From assembly GCF_022812285.1 (NCBI RefSeq), contig NZ_CP093300.1, forward strand, positions 2,418,001-2,482,000: a stretch of DNA of 64,000 nucleotides. The letters run 5' to 3'. This DNA is from Alkalihalobacillus sp. LMS39 (GTDB lineage Bacteria > Bacillota > Bacilli > Bacillales > Bacillaceae_F). A program made the translations under genes and the position numbers. The notes below the pieces were generated by a model, which was not told the origin of the DNA, did not search any database, and saw nothing but the letters and a program-made list of their open reading frames with translations. How positions within the stretch are numbered: position 1 is the first letter of the stretch; every line of letters begins with the position of its first letter. Shown here piece by piece: positions 22,377 to 55,980 of the stretch.

Positions 22377-22410
22377 AAATAGCGCTGTATGAAAACAGCG
22401 CTATTTTTCA
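22377..22410. terminator. Bidirectional terminator
   Basis: AATAGCGCTGT / ACAGCGCTATT with a 6-base loop lies between A and T runs. Its right part overlaps the end of the histidine kinase gene on the other strand. Confidence 0.85.
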
Positions 22411-24212
22411 TGGAGTGGTAATGTTAACCGAAATGTTGTCCCATTTTTTGTCGATTCGATAAGCTCGATTTTTCCATAGTGATTTAGGATAATTCGCTGA
22501 ATAATCGTTAGTCCTAGCCCTGTCCCATCTTCTTTTGAGCTTATAAATGGTTCAAAGATTTGATCTTGCATATCGGGAGGGATACCAGGACCTGTATCTT
22601 TAATATAAATATAAATTTGCTTATGAGGAGCTCTTTCACTATAAATAGAAATATGACCTTGTAAACCTATAGCTTGAATGCTGTTTCGAACTAAATTATA
22701 AAATACTTGTTTTAATTGGTCATAATCGATAAAAATTTTATGTGAGTCAATTTTTAAATCGATCGTAATGCCACTAGGACAAGTTCCCTCAATGATAGGG
22801 AGAATGTCATCTAAAACCTCTTTAAGTTCAAACGGTCTGAAATTCGGCTTACCTGGCTTAACTAATAATAATAAATTTCCAACGATTTGATTAATCCGTT
22901 CTAATTCTTTTAAAAGTAAGGGAAGATGAAATTTGGATCGCTTTTCAACAGAAACACTGTCATTCATCATATTTATAAATCCATGAATAACGGCCAATGG
23001 ATTCCGTATTTCATGTGCGGCACCGGCGGCAACTTCTCCAAGCAAAGCTAACTTCTCAGAACGGTGAATTCGCTCTTCCAGTTTATCGATTTCTGATATA
23101 TCAATAAAATAAAATATCCTCCCAATGACATCATCGGTTTCGTTAAGTAGGGCGGTCTGAGAAACGAGGAGCTTTTTTTTCACATGTTGTGTATGAAAAG
23201 TTGTTTTTCTCGTTTGGAAATATTCTTTTGAAAAAAACCATTTCCAAAACTCGTGATGGTCAGATTGTTGCTTAGATTTAATTAAACGTTTTATGTCTTC
23301 TTTTCGCTTTCCTATCACCGTTGCTGCCATATCATTGATTTGAATATCTTCTTCATTGCCTTCAATTGAAATGATTCCAATAGGTAAGGAAGATAAAATT
23401 TGTTCCCGAACGAGCTTCTCTTTAATCAAAGTATTAAAGGATTCTTCGAGGCTCATTGACATTTTATTTATCGAAGTTGTTAACTTATGAAAATCATATT
23501 GCTCGACTATATCAACTTCTAAACCGTATTTCCCTTTTGAAATCGCTTCTACTTGGTCTATAAGTTTTTCCATTGGTTTCGTCAAGTCTTGACTAATCCG
23601 GCACGCAAGGATAATCGATAAAATGATACCTACACAAGTTGAAACTAATAAGATAATAAGAGAGTCCTTAATCATCATCGAAATATTATTTGAGTTTGTT
23701 GTGATAGAGTAAATGGTGTCATTCTCCAATGCACTCAACTCTTTTTCGATAACAAGCAAACGAGGGTGAATCTCTTCTTCAATTACTTGTTTAGCACCAG
23801 GTATATTATTATACTTTAGGAGCCCATCTACTTTGTTTAAATATATAAAATTTAACTCTGAAAATTCTGACTCGATAGCTGCTAATGAGGATGGAAGTGC
23901 AGTTTCCTCGAGAGCATTGGTTGTTTCATTATGAAAGTAAAACTGTAATAATTCAGTTTCTTCATATAGAAGAAATTGCTCTAGAGCATAACGACGGGTA
24001 AATGTCTCTTCTTGCATTTCTTTAATCCAAACAAATTCTGGTATAGCTTCTTGTTCAATTCCATCACTAAGTCCACCAACATTATCAATCGTATGAACGA
24101 ACAGCAAAGAAACACCACTTAGGAGGCACACTAAAAGCAAAAAGCTGAACAATATTTTGTTTCGAAAAGATAGTGTGAAAAATGGTTGGAACATTGCTTT
24201 TACAGCCTCCAT
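22401..24212 (-). CDS. Membrane sensor histidine kinase (HAMP-PAS-HisKA-HATPase)
   Basis: A 603-aa kinase. It has a membrane segment near residues 17-40, an outside sensor part to about residue 175, a second membrane segment (DSLIILLVSTCVGIILSII), a HAMP linker and a PAS-like region with a glycine-rich QINDMAATVIG. The phosphoacceptor is in AAHEIRNPLAVIHGF, and the ATP-binding motifs are YNLVRNSIQAI and DTGPGIPPDMQDQIFEPFISS. The cytoplasmic half resembles the KinB/NtrB kind. It starts 5 bases after the BMP-like gene. An alternative start at 24194 has GGAGG 11 bases before it. No response regulator is adjacent. Confidence 0.92.
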   Translation of the reverse strand: MEAVKAMFQPFFTLSFRNKILFSFLLLVCLLSGVSLLFVHTIDNVGGLSDGIEQEAIPEFVWIKEMQEETFTRRYALEQFLLYEETELLQFYFHNETTNALEETALPSSLAAIESEFSELNFIYLNKVDGLLKYNNIPGAKQVIEEEIHPRLLVIEKELSALENDTIYSITTNSNNISMMIKDSLIILLVSTCVGIILSIILACRISQDLTKPMEKLIDQVEAISKGKYGLEVDIVEQYDFHKLTTSINKMSMSLEESFNTLIKEKLVREQILSSLPIGIISIEGNEEDIQINDMAATVIGKRKEDIKRLIKSKQQSDHHEFWKWFFSKEYFQTRKTTFHTQHVKKKLLVSQTALLNETDDVIGRIFYFIDISEIDKLEERIHRSEKLALLGEVAAGAAHEIRNPLAVIHGFINMMNDSVSVEKRSKFHLPLLLKELERINQIVGNLLLLVKPGKPNFRPFELKEVLDDILPIIEGTCPSGITIDLKIDSHKIFIDYDQLKQVFYNLVRNSIQAIGLQGHISIYSERAPHKQIYIYIKDTGPGIPPDMQDQIFEPFISSKEDGTGLGLTIIQRIILNHYGKIELIESTKNGTTFRLTLPLHEK

Positions 24213-24217
24213 ATTTC

Positions 24218-25231
24218 TTACTCTTCAGGAAATTCGATTTTGTAATCTCCTTGATTGTATCGGGTGATTTTGTCATTCACTTGATTTTTTACATCGTCAG
24301 GAACCATTTGTCCAAACGGAGCTAAACGATAGATTTCATCTTTAAAATCATAAACAATATTGCCAGAGGGAATTCCGTCTTTTGATAAGAATTGGTTTAC
24401 GATATTTTCGTATTTTTTTGGTATATCGATAATTATACTTGTAACGACATGGTCTTTTGCCATATACGATTGGTCGTCAATATATCCAATTACATACACA
24501 TCAGCAGATTTTGCTTCATTGATAACAGCTCGGTTATACGCATTTCCGCTCGTGAAAATAACATCCACTCCAGCTTCAATCACTTCTTTAGCTAGTTTAG
24601 CAGCTTCTTTTTCATCATCTCGACTCCCGACAATCTGATTATAAATGATAGCCTTTGGATTATGTTCAGCGACTGACATCTCGAAGCCAACTCCACCTGT
24701 CGTTTCGTTAGGTTGAATTATGGCAATTTTATTTGACTTCGTCATATAGGAAGAAACCATTCCAGCCATGTACCCATGAGAAAGAAGATGGGAAGAAACA
24801 ACTGATTGGTTTGGATAAGTAGACTCACCGTTTAACGTAACAAAGTGAATTTCCGGATGTTTTGATGCAAAATCCGTAAATACATCAGAAAACTCACGCC
24901 CATGCCCAATAATTAATGATTTGCCTTCCTCAATAAACTGTTGAATGGACTCTTGCATTTCTTGTTCTGTTTCTCTTTCACTAATTAAGTCAACACTTAC
25001 TGGAAACTTGTCTTCAATTAGTAATTTTCCTTCATATGCTAGACTGCCCCAGCTTTGGTCATGAATAACATCAGAAGTAATAATTCCAATAGAATGATAG
25101 TCGTGTGCAAACACATCATCTTCCGAGATTGTAACAACTGAATAAATGCGAAAACCTAGAAAAGCCATGACAAAGGATGTGATTACAATGCTAATGTAAA
25201 TTAGCCTCTTAGATAAATTCGCTTGTGACAT
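24218..25231 (-). CDS. Membrane-anchored BMP/Med-like ligand-binding protein
   Basis: A 337-aa protein with an N-terminal membrane segment (LIYISIVITSFVMAFLGFR) and a PnrA/BMP-type periplasmic binding fold (IGIITSDVIHDQSWGSLAYEG; AEHNPKAIIYNQIVGSRDD; GVDVIFTSGNAYNRAVI). It has no lipobox, so it stays anchored by the helix. B. subtilis Med, a positive regulator of competence, has the same layout. Gene order suggests it senses a nucleoside-like ligand and passes it to the kinase that follows 5 bases later. The ligand is inferred from the fold only. Confidence 0.85.
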   Translation of the reverse strand: MSQANLSKRLIYISIVITSFVMAFLGFRIYSVVTISEDDVFAHDYHSIGIITSDVIHDQSWGSLAYEGKLLIEDKFPVSVDLISERETEQEMQESIQQFIEEGKSLIIGHGREFSDVFTDFASKHPEIHFVTLNGESTYPNQSVVSSHLLSHGYMAGMVSSYMTKSNKIAIIQPNETTGGVGFEMSVAEHNPKAIIYNQIVGSRDDEKEAAKLAKEVIEAGVDVIFTSGNAYNRAVINEAKSADVYVIGYIDDQSYMAKDHVVTSIIIDIPKKYENIVNQFLSKDGIPSGNIVYDFKDEIYRLAPFGQMVPDDVKNQVNDKITRYNQGDYKIEFPEE

Positions 25232-25341: not shown

Positions 25342-25413
25342 AAAAATAGTGTGTATTGATGGGAAAATATCGAGTTGTGAACTTTGTAAAATCCATCTAA
25401 AAATAGTGTGTAT
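25342..25413. repeat. Pair of 15-bp direct repeats upstream of the PIN-Lon operon
   Basis: AAAAATAGTGTGTAT occurs at 25342-25356 and again at 25399-25413, 57 bases apart, in the AT-rich gap between the Med-like gene and the operon starting at 25506. It could be a binding site for a regulator of either side. The rest of the 274-base gap shows no gene. Confidence 0.55.
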
Positions 25414-25505
25414 TTTTCAATTAAAATATTTTTATCATAATGACAAAATAGGATAATAAGGCTATAATATTTTTATTTACGAAATAAAAAGGAGGGACTA
25501 AAGAA

Positions 25506-25880
25506 GTGGTGTATTTACCTTTTATATTGATTGGTGGATTAGTTGGTGCATTCATCGGGACTTTTATTGCAGGGAAAAGAAAAAGTGCAATTAAAACAGA
25601 TGTGAAAAGTATTTTTCCAGAAAAAAATGATTATTGGACTGAAACGATATACCAAGCAGACGACCGAATGGGTGACTTTTATGCGGTTATGCTAAAAGAC
25701 TTACATAAAGTTGAAAAGCATAGAAGCACATCAACGGATTTTGATGAAGTCGATTATTTTGACCCTTATACAAATCCGGGTACAGATGTTGTCATCGATG
25801 AAAGCTACCATGGAATGGACCGGGGCCTTGGAATCAACCAAGAACACGATAACCAAAGTCAAAATAATCAAAATTTTTAA
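25506..25880 (+). CDS. Small membrane protein with acidic tail, first gene of PIN-Lon operon
   Basis: A 124-aa protein starting with GTG after GGAGGG. One membrane segment (FILIGGLVGAFIGTFIAG) is followed by KRKSAIK, then a hydrophilic, acidic tail with many Asp and Asn (DFDEVDYFDPYTNPG; QEHDNQSQNNQNF). I do not recognise a family. It is 18 bases from the next gene, so it is probably cotranscribed with the two PIN genes and the Lon-like gene. Confidence 0.68.
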   Translation: MVYLPFILIGGLVGAFIGTFIAGKRKSAIKTDVKSIFPEKNDYWTETIYQADDRMGDFYAVMLKDLHKVEKHRSTSTDFDEVDYFDPYTNPGTDVVIDESYHGMDRGLGINQEHDNQSQNNQNF

Positions 25881-25898
25881 TAGGAAGGAGAAAGAACA

Positions 25899-26732
25899 TT
25901 GGTTTTAATGATATTTTTACATTTTTTACTAGATAAGCTTGGTGTTGGTGCAAATAGCGTTGCTATTATCTATGTTCTATCAGCATTGTTAGTAAGTTAT
26001 TATTACTATGTCAATAAACCATATACAGTTAATAAATCGACAGCAGTTTGGTTGAATATTCTTGTCGTTGGGACAGGTCAATTTTACCTTCGTCAATATA
26101 TTATTGGACTTATATTTCTTATTTTCCATTTAGGCTTCTACTTATCTTTAATGATTTTCGGTACGAATTTAGAAGATGGTGTCGTTATGATGCTCTTTGT
26201 AGTTCCTACAGTTATTTCTGCCGTGTATTCGAATATAACAAGTAATCGAGTCCGTGAACGCCTTCACCGAAACTCCATGCAAGAAGTAGCTGTTAGAAAG
26301 TATAAATTACTTGTGCCTTATATTGAAAGAGGAATAGGTTTTGCCCCAGATACGAATATATTGATGCACCAAGCGTTAACATTAATTGCTGCTTTTTACG
26401 ACAGTAATGTCCATTTATTTATTAGTAAACAAGTCTTTAAAGAGTTGGAAGGACTTAAGAAAAATAAATTACCATCTGTACGAAACCATGCTCAGATCGC
26501 CTTTGATATTATCGAATTATATCAACAAGAAAATAGGTTAGATTTATTAGATATCCCATCTTCCACTTACCTAATGAAAAACAACTTAACGAATTCTAAT
26601 TCAGATGATAGAATCATTGGTTCATATTTGTATGCACTAAAAGAACAACGAATTCCGATGTTGTTTTTATCAAATGATAAAGGTGCTAGAATTATAGCTC
26701 GTAATATTGGGATTCCACTCCAATCTGTATAG
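25899..26732 (+). CDS. Membrane protein with C-terminal PIN-domain ribonuclease
   Basis: A 277-aa protein starting with TTG; AGGAAGGAG lies 8 bases upstream. The N-terminal 115 residues form about four membrane segments with a TM2-like core (VVGTGQFYLRQYIIGLIFLI). The C-terminal 130 residues form a PIN domain whose acidic residues are D151 (PDTNILMH), E182 (FKELEGLK), D236/D237 (SNSDDRII) and D260 (LSNDKGARI). These match the set needed for Mg-dependent RNA cleavage. The PIN sequence is most like that of PhoH2-type proteins, but no PhoH ATPase is present. It is likely a membrane-tethered RNase facing the cytoplasm. Confidence 0.84.
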   Translation: MVLMIFLHFLLDKLGVGANSVAIIYVLSALLVSYYYYVNKPYTVNKSTAVWLNILVVGTGQFYLRQYIIGLIFLIFHLGFYLSLMIFGTNLEDGVVMMLFVVPTVISAVYSNITSNRVRERLHRNSMQEVAVRKYKLLVPYIERGIGFAPDTNILMHQALTLIAAFYDSNVHLFISKQVFKELEGLKKNKLPSVRNHAQIAFDIIELYQQENRLDLLDIPSSTYLMKNNLTNSNSDDRIIGSYLYALKEQRIPMLFLSNDKGARIIARNIGIPLQSV

Positions 26733-26746
26733 AAAGAGGCCTGAAA

Positions 26747-27961
26747 ATGGAAAACAACAAGGACCTTCAACTTGATGAAGTACAACAACAGAAATTGAAA
26801 GTCATACCTGATACGAATTTTTTTATTGATGGTCTAGAATATCTACAAACATTACAGCCTAAAGATATCATCGTTAGTAGTATTGTTGTAAAAGAACTAG
26901 ATGGATTAAAATCATCAAACGAAAATTCAACTCAAGAAGTTAAAGACAGGGCTTATAAAGTAAGGAAAGCAATACACTTCATTACTGATTCAAATTTACA
27001 AGTAGAAAATCCACCACTAAAATCTCGGTTAGAGGAATTACAATTGCAAGATAGCAATGATGATAAAATCATAGCAACAGGATTACATGTACAACAAAAA
27101 ACAAATGAATTAGTCGTTTTTTTAACGTTTGATCGTGCTGCAAGTTTAATTGCTAGAGCGGTTAATATGACTTGCCCTAAATTATCTTACGATGATATAA
27201 AGCCAAAGGTAACTTATAGAAATTCAAACAAAGAACGACCGTCCTATCAGTCAAGTTATTTCCGAAATAAGGAAGAGGAAACAAAATCAACCCCAAGTTA
27301 TCCAAAACATTATACAAAAGAAAGCACTGGGAAAACAGGTGTTGGCTCTAAAGACAGGCCGAAATTAAAAATGAATGGTAAAACAGGATTAGCGTCTCAT
27401 GATAAAACAAGACGTTCACCGAAGCTTACAAAACGGAAAAAGAAAAATTTTACACTTTTAATCTCAAGACTCATTGTGCTATTTGTTATCGTTTTTTTTG
27501 TTATATCTGCTATCCAACGTTCTGATGAAAGAAGTGTAAAAATAGATGAGCAACAGCAAATCTTTGAAAATCTTCCTATTCCATTTGACAATGTAGAAAT
27601 AACCCTTACGGAGTTAAAATCTGGCGATAATGGCTTTCAATTATTTTATGACGTAATCAATCGAAATGAGTTTGAGATTGAATTTGGTCATCCTTTAGAA
27701 AAGCTTAGCGAGGAAGAACCTTCTGGTGCTCTTGCTCAATATAAAAAACAATTATCTTTACATTCGGAAGTCATTACACTTAGATATGACAATGATACTG
27801 TTGAATATACTTCTGGAAGGGCGCTCTTAAAGCCAAATCAAGTTGAGAGGATGTATATTGGAGGAAGACAACCTATAGAGACGTTAACCTCTATTCATGC
27901 TTGGGTTCAAGATATAGAATCTGGAGAAGTGCGAGAAATGATTTTTAATGTAAGTGAATAA
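26747..27961 (+). CDS. PIN-domain protein with transmembrane anchor and extracytoplasmic domain
   Basis: A 404-aa protein in reverse order to its upstream neighbour: PIN domain first, with D22 (PDTNFFID), E50 (VVKELDGLK), D105/D106 (SNDDKII) and D129 (TFDRAASLI). A basic, Ser/Thr/Lys-rich linker (about residues 150-232) leads to one membrane segment (FTLLISRLIVLFVIVFFVIS, about 235-254). A C-terminal domain of 150 residues would lie outside (VEITLTELKSGDNGFQLFYD; HAWVQDIESGEV), with beta-rich character. The acidic set is complete, so RNase activity is likely. It starts 14 bases after the previous gene and ends 8 bases before the Lon-like gene. Confidence 0.82.
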   Translation: MENNKDLQLDEVQQQKLKVIPDTNFFIDGLEYLQTLQPKDIIVSSIVVKELDGLKSSNENSTQEVKDRAYKVRKAIHFITDSNLQVENPPLKSRLEELQLQDSNDDKIIATGLHVQQKTNELVVFLTFDRAASLIARAVNMTCPKLSYDDIKPKVTYRNSNKERPSYQSSYFRNKEEETKSTPSYPKHYTKESTGKTGVGSKDRPKLKMNGKTGLASHDKTRRSPKLTKRKKKNFTLLISRLIVLFVIVFFVISAIQRSDERSVKIDEQQQIFENLPIPFDNVEITLTELKSGDNGFQLFYDVINRNEFEIEFGHPLEKLSEEEPSGALAQYKKQLSLHSEVITLRYDNDTVEYTSGRALLKPNQVERMYIGGRQPIETLTSIHAWVQDIESGEVREMIFNVSE

Positions 27962-27969
27962 TAGTCCTC

Positions 27970-28911
27970 ATGTTGAAGTTGGTGAATATTCTCTTGATTA
28001 TTTTTCTAGCTATTTTATTTATTGTTTTCGAGATTTTATTGATTATAAGTGGATCATTTTTGTTTTTTTTGACGACTGGGTATGTAAACTACTTTATCGT
28101 TTTTATTGCTATCATCTTATTAAGCTACCCGTTATATGTACACTATTTACCAAGAAGATTACAAATAGGTTTTTTGGAATACTTAGTGTTTTTCCCTGTA
28201 CTAATTGTTATGTTATGGGCTGGTTCTGAAGAGCAAATGTACAAGAATAATCATGCAAAACTTTCTTTTTTTGATGATGAAATGGCAAAGTATGTTGATG
28301 AAGATAAACGATTATTATCTGTAAGTACGTTAAGTACGTTTGGAAAAATAGATGATTTGTATGAGCTAGCAAGTGATTTAGAAGTTATCGAAAACGATGG
28401 AACACAATTAACTCTTGTGAGCAAACGTTCTTATCTTTATGCGAAAATCGATTATAGTTATCAAGATATTGTAGCAAGCTTTAAACTCGACCCATTTTCA
28501 AAATCAGGTGAAAATCTCATAATGTACTTTGGTGAAGACATTAAAGAGTACCCGTTTTATCAAGACTTTATGGAAAGAGATGCGTATGGTGATAGTGGTG
28601 GATTAGCTTTAGCGACAGCGATCATGCAAGAAAGAAATATGATACATGTTTCAAGGGAAATTGCCATTACTGGAGCAGTTGATGAACATGGGTATGTTCA
28701 TCCTGTCGGTGGTCTAGTACAAAAAATTCCTCAAGCAGCATTTTACGAGGCAGAGATATTTTTATGCCCAGCTGAGAATCTTGAGTTTGCGTTATTTCTA
28801 AAAAAACATTTTGATTTATCAATAGAGATTGTTGGAATTTCCCATATCGATGAGTTGTTAGAATTGGATTTTAACAAACTTCATAATGAACAACCTAAAT
28901 TCATGAAATGA
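27970..28911 (+). CDS. Membrane-anchored Lon-type (S16) serine protease
   Basis: A 313-aa protein. About three membrane segments fill residues 4-84. The C-terminal 110 residues are a Lon proteolytic domain: YGDSGGLALATAIMQERN with S209, REIAITGAVDEHGYVHPVGG, and K252 in LVQKIPQAAFYEAEIF. The spacing S209 to K252 is 43 residues, the same as in E. coli Lon (S679-K722). There is no AAA ATPase and no PDZ domain, unlike Lon and YlbL. Residues 90-200 form an unrecognised domain. The start follows the previous stop by 8 bases and has only a weak ribosome site, suggesting coupled translation. Confidence 0.86.
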   Translation: MLKLVNILLIIFLAILFIVFEILLIISGSFLFFLTTGYVNYFIVFIAIILLSYPLYVHYLPRRLQIGFLEYLVFFPVLIVMLWAGSEEQMYKNNHAKLSFFDDEMAKYVDEDKRLLSVSTLSTFGKIDDLYELASDLEVIENDGTQLTLVSKRSYLYAKIDYSYQDIVASFKLDPFSKSGENLIMYFGEDIKEYPFYQDFMERDAYGDSGGLALATAIMQERNMIHVSREIAITGAVDEHGYVHPVGGLVQKIPQAAFYEAEIFLCPAENLEFALFLKKHFDLSIEIVGISHIDELLELDFNKLHNEQPKFMK

Positions 28912-54804: not shown

Positions 54805-55980
54805 TTAATTTTCAGCTGTACCATATCGTTCTTCGAACATTTTTTGAAGAACTTCTCTTTGTTGCCCAAAACCATGAGCGACTTTTTGTTTGTTTTCGTT
54901 AAAACTGATACATCTTAAGTAGATTACTTTCTCTACTGCACGCTCATTTGGGAACGTTACTATTTTTCTAGTACGGCGCTTTATTTCTCCCATAAAACGT
55001 TCAATCATATTTGTACAGTATATCTTTCGATGGAGGATAGTAGGATATTTATAAAAGGTTAATAGAACAGGGAGATCTTCCTTCCATGACTTAATCACTT
55101 TCGGGTACCGTTTTGACCACTTCGTGCTAAAATTTTTAAACTCCTCATGCGCCATTTCTTTATTTTTAGAGTTGTAAATTGCTTTTAAATCTTCGGCAAT
55201 TTCCTCTCTATCTTTCTTTCGTACTGCTGATAATGAGTTTCTTACTTTATGAACAATACATCGCTGTACATCTGCCTTAGGAAATACGCGTTTAAATGCT
55301 GCTTCAAGTCCACTAAGGCCATCAAACACCCCTAGTAAGACTTCCTCTACGCCACGTTCTCTAAGTTTTTGTAATTGTTGTTCCCACCCAGTGGAACTTT
55401 CTTGCCCACCGACATGAAACCCAAGAATTTCTCTAACTCCATTTTCGTTAATTCCCAAGATAATATAAACTACTTCATTTTCGACGTCATCTCTGCGTAA
55501 GTTAATATAAGTACCATCTAGAAATAATACAGAGTAACGTTTTTCAAGTTGACGGGATTGCCAAGCTTCTACGTCTTCAATCAAAACATCAGTGATATTG
55601 CTGATTGTTGTTGGAGAATAGGTATCACCAAGAACATTCTCTACAAATTTACCAATCTCTCTTGTACTCATTCCATCTTGATACATCTGTATAATAGATT
55701 CTCCAAGCCATTGTTCATACCGCTGGTATGGCTTAAATACTTTAGTTTGAAAGTGGTTTTCACGGTCTCTTGGAACCTTAAGGCTGGTAATATGTCCATA
55801 TTTCGTGTCTAACGATCGCTCGTAATGTCCATTCTTTTGATTTTTAAGTTCTGGATGCTCTACTTCAAAATACTGTTGCATTTCTTCTTTCATAATTAAT
55901 TCAAGCTTCTGTTTTACAAATTCACGAACCATGTTATCTAGTTGATCTGCAAATGGGTTTTCATTTATACTTTGTACCAT
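54805..55980 (-). CDS. IS256-family transposase (mutator type)
   Basis: A 391-aa DDE transposase. The catalytic acids lie in LFLDGTYINLRRDDV (first D), GVFDGLSGLEAAF (second D) and the C-terminal NMIERFMGEIKRRTRK (E). CIVHKVRNSLSAVRKKDRE is the family's CxxH region. No frameshift is seen, so it is probably active. GGAGATACCTACCT precedes the ATG. Codon use is similar to the surrounding genes. Confidence 0.95.
   Translation of the reverse strand: MVQSINENPFADQLDNMVREFVKQKLELIMKEEMQQYFEVEHPELKNQKNGHYERSLDTKYGHITSLKVPRDRENHFQTKVFKPYQRYEQWLGESIIQMYQDGMSTREIGKFVENVLGDTYSPTTISNITDVLIEDVEAWQSRQLEKRYSVLFLDGTYINLRRDDVENEVVYIILGINENGVREILGFHVGGQESSTGWEQQLQKLRERGVEEVLLGVFDGLSGLEAAFKRVFPKADVQRCIVHKVRNSLSAVRKKDREEIAEDLKAIYNSKNKEMAHEEFKNFSTKWSKRYPKVIKSWKEDLPVLLTFYKYPTILHRKIYCTNMIERFMGEIKRRTRKIVTFPNERAVEKVIYLRCISFNENKQKVAHGFGQQREVLQKMFEERYGTAEN

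Follow-up and report, generated by a model that had tools for sequence, protein, structure and literature searches.

A stretch of 64,000 nucleotides from Alkalihalobacillus sp. LMS39 (contig NZ_CP093300.1, positions 2,418,001-2,482,000 of the 4.85 Mb genome; the whole stretch is called the window below) contains an operon of four genes. The operon is best explained, with a probability of roughly 0.4, as encoding a complex of PIN endoribonucleases tethered to the membrane. This complex would include a small membrane partner and a sensing domain on the outside, which a Lon-like protease, also outside, may cut. For genes 1-3, the idea of a single system is supported by their linkage in independent genomes, as judged from sequence comparison. 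The operon is laid out as follows (aa, amino acids; TM, transmembrane).

25440..25468, + strand: sigma-A-type promoter-like site, ATGACA-N17-TATAAT, upstream of gene 1
25506..25880, + strand: gene 1; GTG start; 124 aa; N-terminal TM helix 4-22; predicted cytosolic tail
25899..26732, + strand: gene 2; TTG start; 277 aa; TM helices 14-32, 68-86 and 95-113; PIN_4 domain 150-276, predicted cytosolic
26747..27961, + strand: gene 3; ATG start; 404 aa; predicted cytosolic PIN_4 domain 20-143; TM helix 235-253; predicted extracytoplasmic beta-sandwich at about 280-404
27970..28911, + strand: gene 4; ATG start; 313 aa; TM helices 7-25, 33-51 and 66-84; Lon S16-like domain predicted outside

The four open reading frames (ORFs; 25506-28911) are separated by gaps of 18, 14 and 8 bases, and no obvious Shine-Dalgarno sequence was seen by eye before gene 4. 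In Alkalihalobacillus bogoriensis all four genes occur in the same order with the same flanking neighbours, at identities of 97, 92, 79 and 86% for genes 1 to 4. The corresponding ratios of nonsynonymous to synonymous substitution rates (dN/dS) are 0.06, 0.11, 0.18 and 0.21, which indicates purifying selection. Constraint is strongest on gene 1, the PIN part of gene 3 (0.10, with 0.31 for its TM helix and outer part) and gene 2. Being kept in A. bogoriensis under such selection, the four-gene set is more than a chance arrangement. The DNA from the promoter-like site to the start codon of gene 1 (GTG in the window, ATG in A. bogoriensis) is identical in the two species, and the DNA just upstream of the site has diverged. 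The weight of this site lies in its conservation, since a promoter scan yielded fewer sites overall (13) than shuffled sequences did (20.1).

Genes 2 and 3 each match the Pfam family PIN_4 (PF13638, cut-off 21.9 bits), gene 2 at residues 150-276 (E 2e-13, 51.2 bits) and gene 3 at residues 20-143 (E 8.1e-18, 65.4 bits). The acid set is complete in both, with D151/E182/D236-237/D260 in gene 2 and D22/E50/D105-106/D129 in gene 3. No TRAM domain was matched in gene 2, which ends one residue past the PIN match. Among solved structures, the only sequence matches of gene 3 are two entries of the SMG6/EST1A PIN domain (best E 0.0019). Gene 1 has nothing over the Pfam cut-off, and no DNA-binding domain was found in it with Pfam and NCBIfam profiles. 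Its acidic, His-bearing tail carries a conserved C-terminal motif, DESYHGIDHG-like, at residues 86-111 (about 25761-25838).

In gene 4, the Pfam family Lon_C is matched at residues 207-299 (E 1.8e-8; profile positions 109-201 of 205; 34.6 bits, cut-off 21.1), and the dyad S209/K252 is present with a spacing of 43. All 50 matches listed in a fold search are Lon proteases, the best being 1z0e (E 5.7e-6). Only about 120 residues separate the Lon_C match from the last TM helix; the N-terminal half of the Lon domain is too diverged for Pfam, and residues 83-209 of the model mostly have pLDDT values (predicted local distance difference test) below 50. Profile searches detected neither an AAA+ nor a PDZ domain, and the NCBIfam SepM family profile scored 25.9 against gene 4 (E 4.4e-6), well under its cut-off of 200. 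Much of this architecture had been outlined in a first-pass annotation made from the letters alone. Its coordinates and gaps were reproduced, the intact PIN acid sets and the Lon pair were confirmed residue by residue, and gene 3 does consist of a PIN domain, one membrane anchor and a predicted outside domain. The four helices it gave gene 2 ahead of a correctly placed PIN domain become three by hydropathy, and its complete Lon S16 domain is half shown, because only the C-terminal half, with the dyad, matches a profile.

Topology was predicted from hydropathy and flanking charges with a simple script rather than a trained predictor. Positive charges follow the single helix of gene 1 and the three helices of gene 2, which predicts that the tail of the former and the PIN domain of the latter lie inside. 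Residues 58-63 of gene 2 form a GxGxxY stretch that could be part of another segment and that is weakly DUF5683-like in two of the relatives. By the same script, relatives of gene 2 have two or three TM helices. The PIN domain of gene 3 is predicted inside and its outer domain outside because nine net positive charges precede the single helix, the linker between PIN domain and helix being positively charged. A charged loop between helices 2 and 3 of gene 4 is the reason why its Lon-like domain is predicted outside. The gene-1 helix was called in three of six related proteins at the threshold of the script and in five of six (not that of genome G935) at a laxer one. Both PIN domains and the gene-1 tail would thus face the cytosol, and the beta-sandwich of gene 3 and the Lon-like domain the outside. 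The alignments behind the AlphaFold models of genes 3 and 4 were very shallow, with 3 and 5 rows. In the model of gene 3, residues 281-310 and 341-400 form a beta-sandwich with pLDDT 74-85, residues 311-340 and the last residues being weaker. Structure comparison of this outer domain gave generic immunoglobulin-like or fibronectin-like matches.

Relatives of gene 2 were sought in overlapping sets of 150 relatives, 397 genomes of the order, 398 of the class, 250 of the order of genome G610, 29 of the family of G211 and 35 of the family of G296. Full-length proteins of the gene-2 type, with an N-terminal TM region and a PIN domain, were found in nine genomes, namely the window genome, A. bogoriensis, G116, G012, G296, G161, G211, G610 and G935. 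In seven of these a small gene on the same strand lies 18-36 bases from gene 2, preceding it in five pairs and following it in G161 and G211. A clear gene-1 protein with the C-terminal motif adjoins gene 2 in six of the nine (the window, A. bogoriensis, G296, G161, G211 and G935), and a tblastn search with gene 1 recovers the five motif-bearing partners outside the window. The seventh partner, in G610, is tentatively regarded as a relative: its N-terminal part resembles that of gene 1 with a score of 28.5 bits, against 22.7 for the best of 1000 shuffles. A gene-1 profile run over the 397 genomes of the order gave five strong matches (E<1e-30), all at pair loci. The profile contained the window and four of these loci by construction (apart from the window's kin, they come from other families), so the absence of strong matches elsewhere is the informative part of this search; none of 15 weak loci has the motif. 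Genes 1 and 2 are therefore a recurring, sporadic pair. Its distribution is patchy, since gene-2 relatives are missing from other species in the genera of G161, G211 and G296 and, together with those of gene 3, from G002-G006, the nearest kin after A. bogoriensis.

The outer domain of gene 3 is linked to the same type of nuclease by a fusion. In G610, the chain that adjoins the small gene (P0005, 483 residues) aligns with gene 2 at 46% identity over 232 aa and, beyond its PIN domain, with the outer domain of gene 3 at 23% over 128 residues (43.9 bits). None of 1000 shuffled sequences reached this score, the best attaining 25.4; the soluble part alone gave 44.7 bits, the shuffles at most 26.6. 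A TM helix lies between the PIN domain and the outer domain, in the same arrangement as in gene 3. A distant genome thus joins the gene-3 outer domain to a nuclease of the gene-2 type.

Small membrane proteins next to PIN genes have also been found beyond this pair. An adjacent ORF on the same strand, encoding 60-180 aa and a single N-terminal TM helix, occurs at 9 of 18 PIN_4 loci (including G219, which has no TM helix) and beside 11 of 195 background ORFs, the background being other ORFs of at least 200 aa from the same loci, all called mechanically. With the two copies from this genus counted once the figure is 8 of 17 loci (Fisher p 1.3e-5), and in loci outside the set where the pattern was first seen it is 3 of 12 (p 0.04). 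A second pair type consists of a TM-PIN-TM-outer protein directly followed by a small single-TM protein and is located as follows.

L055, 6529-8079: TM-PIN-TM-outer protein, then small single-TM protein
L119, 443-2121: TM-PIN-TM-outer protein, then small single-TM protein

The two large proteins, from G052 and G972, are 34% identical over 427 residues. Their small partners are mutually related (E 6e-11 in a pairwise comparison), and a search with gene 1 at E 0.01 did not find them. In G125 a small single-TM protein overlaps a membrane PIN gene.

In membrane PIN_4 proteins at L084 5873-7507 and L086 3053-4411, weak Pfam matches suggest that a PDZ-like domain separates the TM helices from the PIN domain. 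Near PIN genes of two distant genomes, ORFs at L071 4547-4870 and L055 5133-5480 look like a common small membrane protein family (KVWYxPNxPK ... KVxGL); this likeness was seen by eye and may be chance.

In the proposed complex, gene 2, with its TM bundle, and gene 3 would hold two related PIN domains at the inner face of the membrane, where these domains may dimerise and cleave RNA. The conserved cytosolic tail of gene 1 could dock on the gene-2 nuclease or regulate it. The outer domain of gene 3 may sense or bind something outside, and therefore an external signal could set the nuclease activity. The three-helix Lon-like protease added to the operon in this genus, with its active site predicted outside, would probably trim the outer domain of gene 3 or another membrane partner, a cut in that outer domain being the natural guess as both are predicted in the same compartment. 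A bolder version, considered rather unlikely, is a transmembrane signalling ribonuclease, in which the gene-3 ectodomain would read an event outside the cell, the outside Lon-like protease would commit it, and a composite PIN nuclease at the inner membrane face would thereby be switched, with gene 1 as a membrane-bound brake or docking factor.

Several observations weigh against the proposed complex. The AlphaFold models of genes 3 and 4 are poor overall (mean pLDDT 49 and 54). The gene-2 type protein of G116 has all its acids and no gene 1 adjoining it, and G116 is not among the gene-1 profile matches, provided that the same 397 genomes were used as in the gene-2 search. The relative in G012 has degenerate catalytic residues and, like that of G116, no small gene beside it, although an unrecognised partner elsewhere is possible. 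The small partner in G610 lacks the C-terminal motif and is missed by gene 1 at E 0.01, and half of the PIN_4 loci (9 of 18) have no single-TM neighbour. The PIN domain of gene 3 groups with that of a stand-alone protein in G094 (support 96/95), not with gene 2. The G094 protein has the gene-3 architecture (PIN domain, TM helix and an outer part of about 170 residues) and no small partner adjoining it; the outer parts of the two proteins gave no blastp match at E 0.1. This grouping suggests that genes 2 and 3 come from two old lineages that were later combined rather than from a recent tandem duplication, and the long branches urge caution. Lastly, tblastn with gene 4 (E 0.01) found it in none of 18 other loci, of which 16 have PIN genes (5 with the pair) and two are the G002 and G003 neighbourhoods; two of the loci are only about 3.4 kb long.

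This last result bears on the protease. Gene 4 might be a passenger, an extracytoplasmic Lon-like protease of the YlbL type in function that shares the transcript and has another substrate; the chance of this is a little less than even, and it is compatible with the proposed complex for genes 1-3. The module and gene 4 are neighbours in the two species of this genus alone, and no relative of genes 1-3 is present at any of six loci fetched for their stand-alone Lon-like relatives. Three of these six were inspected (one in G024, two in G015), and each codes for a protein made up of two or three TM helices plus a Lon domain. The weaker constraint on gene 4 (the dN/dS of 0.21) points the same way. 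The 8-base gap and the full synteny in both species, however, speak against a passenger, as does the prediction that its Lon-like domain shares a compartment with the outer domain of gene 3. Because gene 4 is missing from the 18 other loci and relatives of genes 1-3 from the six Lon-like loci, the protease is best seen as a genus-level addition to the operon. The earlier proposal of one system joining RNA cleavage with proteolysis, to be checked by gene order across genomes, is accordingly supported for genes 1-3, linked in independent genomes by the six gene 1-2 neighbours and the G610 fusion, but is not supported for the protease as a core part.

A membrane toxin-antitoxin pair, with gene 2 as the PIN toxin and the tail of gene 1 blocking its active site, is unlikely. 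The model is the VapB tail, which blocks the active site of VapC, and as in VapBC a small gene is paired sporadically with a PIN gene. The small gene comes first in five of seven pairs (G610 counted), the distribution is very sporadic with absence in close kin, and the conserved tail of gene 1 is acidic and His-bearing. However, VapC toxins are soluble, whereas membrane anchors are present here; no DNA-binding antitoxin domain was matched in gene 1, the order is reversed in G161 and G211, and the G116 nuclease keeps all its acids with no gene 1 adjoining.

A general function in membrane RNA decay or sporulation, comparable to RNase Y or spore regulators, appears quite improbable. Purifying selection, the PIN domains and the predicted membrane location would fit it, and spore-coat-like and germination-like genes were recognised by eye downstream of the operon. 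Genes 2 and 3 are, however, absent from G002-G006, a related neighbourhood in G002 and G003 exists without the operon, and the promoter-like site is of the sigma-A type, so the suggested sporulation link is weak. An antiphage or CRISPR accessory set, as in CARF-PIN and CARF-Lon, is very improbable, and the suggested defence link weak, for although the distribution is sporadic and PADLOC, covering six window proteins, matched gene 3 to CARF_PIN (E 3.2e-5) and gene 4 to CARF_LON (E 2.8e-6), these matches cover the PIN and Lon parts only, no CARF or SAVED domain was matched, no defence gene was recognised by eye among the ORFs listed, and searches of viral contigs with genes 1 and 2, and of phage records with gene 2, found no relative (neither collection was searched with gene 3 or gene 4 alone).

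A literature search yielded no description of a system with this set, in agreement with the first-pass annotation, and the proposed complex differs from each of the nearest known systems. The YacL-type membrane PIN-TRAM proteins, of which a Thermus domain has been solved (3ix7), carry a TRAM domain, for which the operon proteins have no match; the operon also has a small partner gene and a sporadic distribution, and gene 3 runs from the PIN domain to the TM helix and the outer domain. Gene 4 differs from the ATP-dependent Lon proteases LonA and LonB in that no AAA+ module was matched. It shares a membrane anchor and a Lon domain with YlbL of Bacillus subtilis and SepM, but has three TM helices, no PDZ match and a dyad spacing of 43 instead of 45. 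According to one report, the YlbL dyad S234/K279 is required for function in B. subtilis, YlbL interacts with the membrane-anchored division inhibitor YneA, and YlbL purified without the TM helix proved inactive (PMC6051672). CalpL, a Lon protease of type III CRISPR systems, is described as cutting its partner CalpT and thereby freeing an effector (PMC11417357). Gene 4 resembles CalpL in its Lon domain, and a cut in a partner would be comparable, whereas here no SAVED or CARF domain was matched and no cas genes were recognised. The PIN domain of SMG6/EST1A is reported to work as a heterodimer with that of the paralogous SMG5 (PMC12923823). Two paralogous PIN domains are likewise present here, and SMG6/EST1A is the structure matched by gene 3, but SMG5-SMG6 is eukaryotic and PIN pairing in the operon is conjectural.

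On the reverse strand at 22401-25231, divergent from the operon, lie two genes separated by 5 bases, one for a BMP-family-like substrate-binding protein that has a hydrophobic segment at its N-terminus, the other for a histidine kinase. Both are co-inherited with the operon in A. bogoriensis, and no transporter gene was noticed adjoining them. G002 and G003 keep the related neighbourhood of Hsp20, agmatinase-like and cobalt-transport genes but, over the 17 kb fetched from each, lack both the operon and this divergent gene pair. An exact 16-base direct repeat (25342-25357 and 25399-25414) upstream of the promoter-like site is not kept in A. bogoriensis. In 200-base steps, identity to A. bogoriensis is 86-96% over 25400-27000, 76-82% over 27000-27800 and 90-97% over 27800-28600, and the synonymous rates (dS) of genes 1, 2 and 4 (0.32-0.36) are about half those of gene 3 and the flanks (0.60-0.84). 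This mosaic divergence across 25400-28600 looks like patchy recombination. An ORF at 54805-55980 on the reverse strand may, judging by its likeness, encode an IS256-type transposase.

To our knowledge, membrane-tied bacterial RNases are few, RNase Y being the main example in this phylum. If the signalling version of the proposed complex were true, a single operon would suffice to lead from an external signal to RNA cleavage, with no transcription factor in between, and it would be one of several pairs of a membrane PIN protein and a small membrane protein in Bacilli. Such pairs recur with at least two partner types (that of gene 1 and that of G052 and G972) and with variants bearing outer or PDZ-like domains, a class that was not found described in the literature search. 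This class of membrane PIN proteins and small partners may couple RNA cleavage to the cell envelope.

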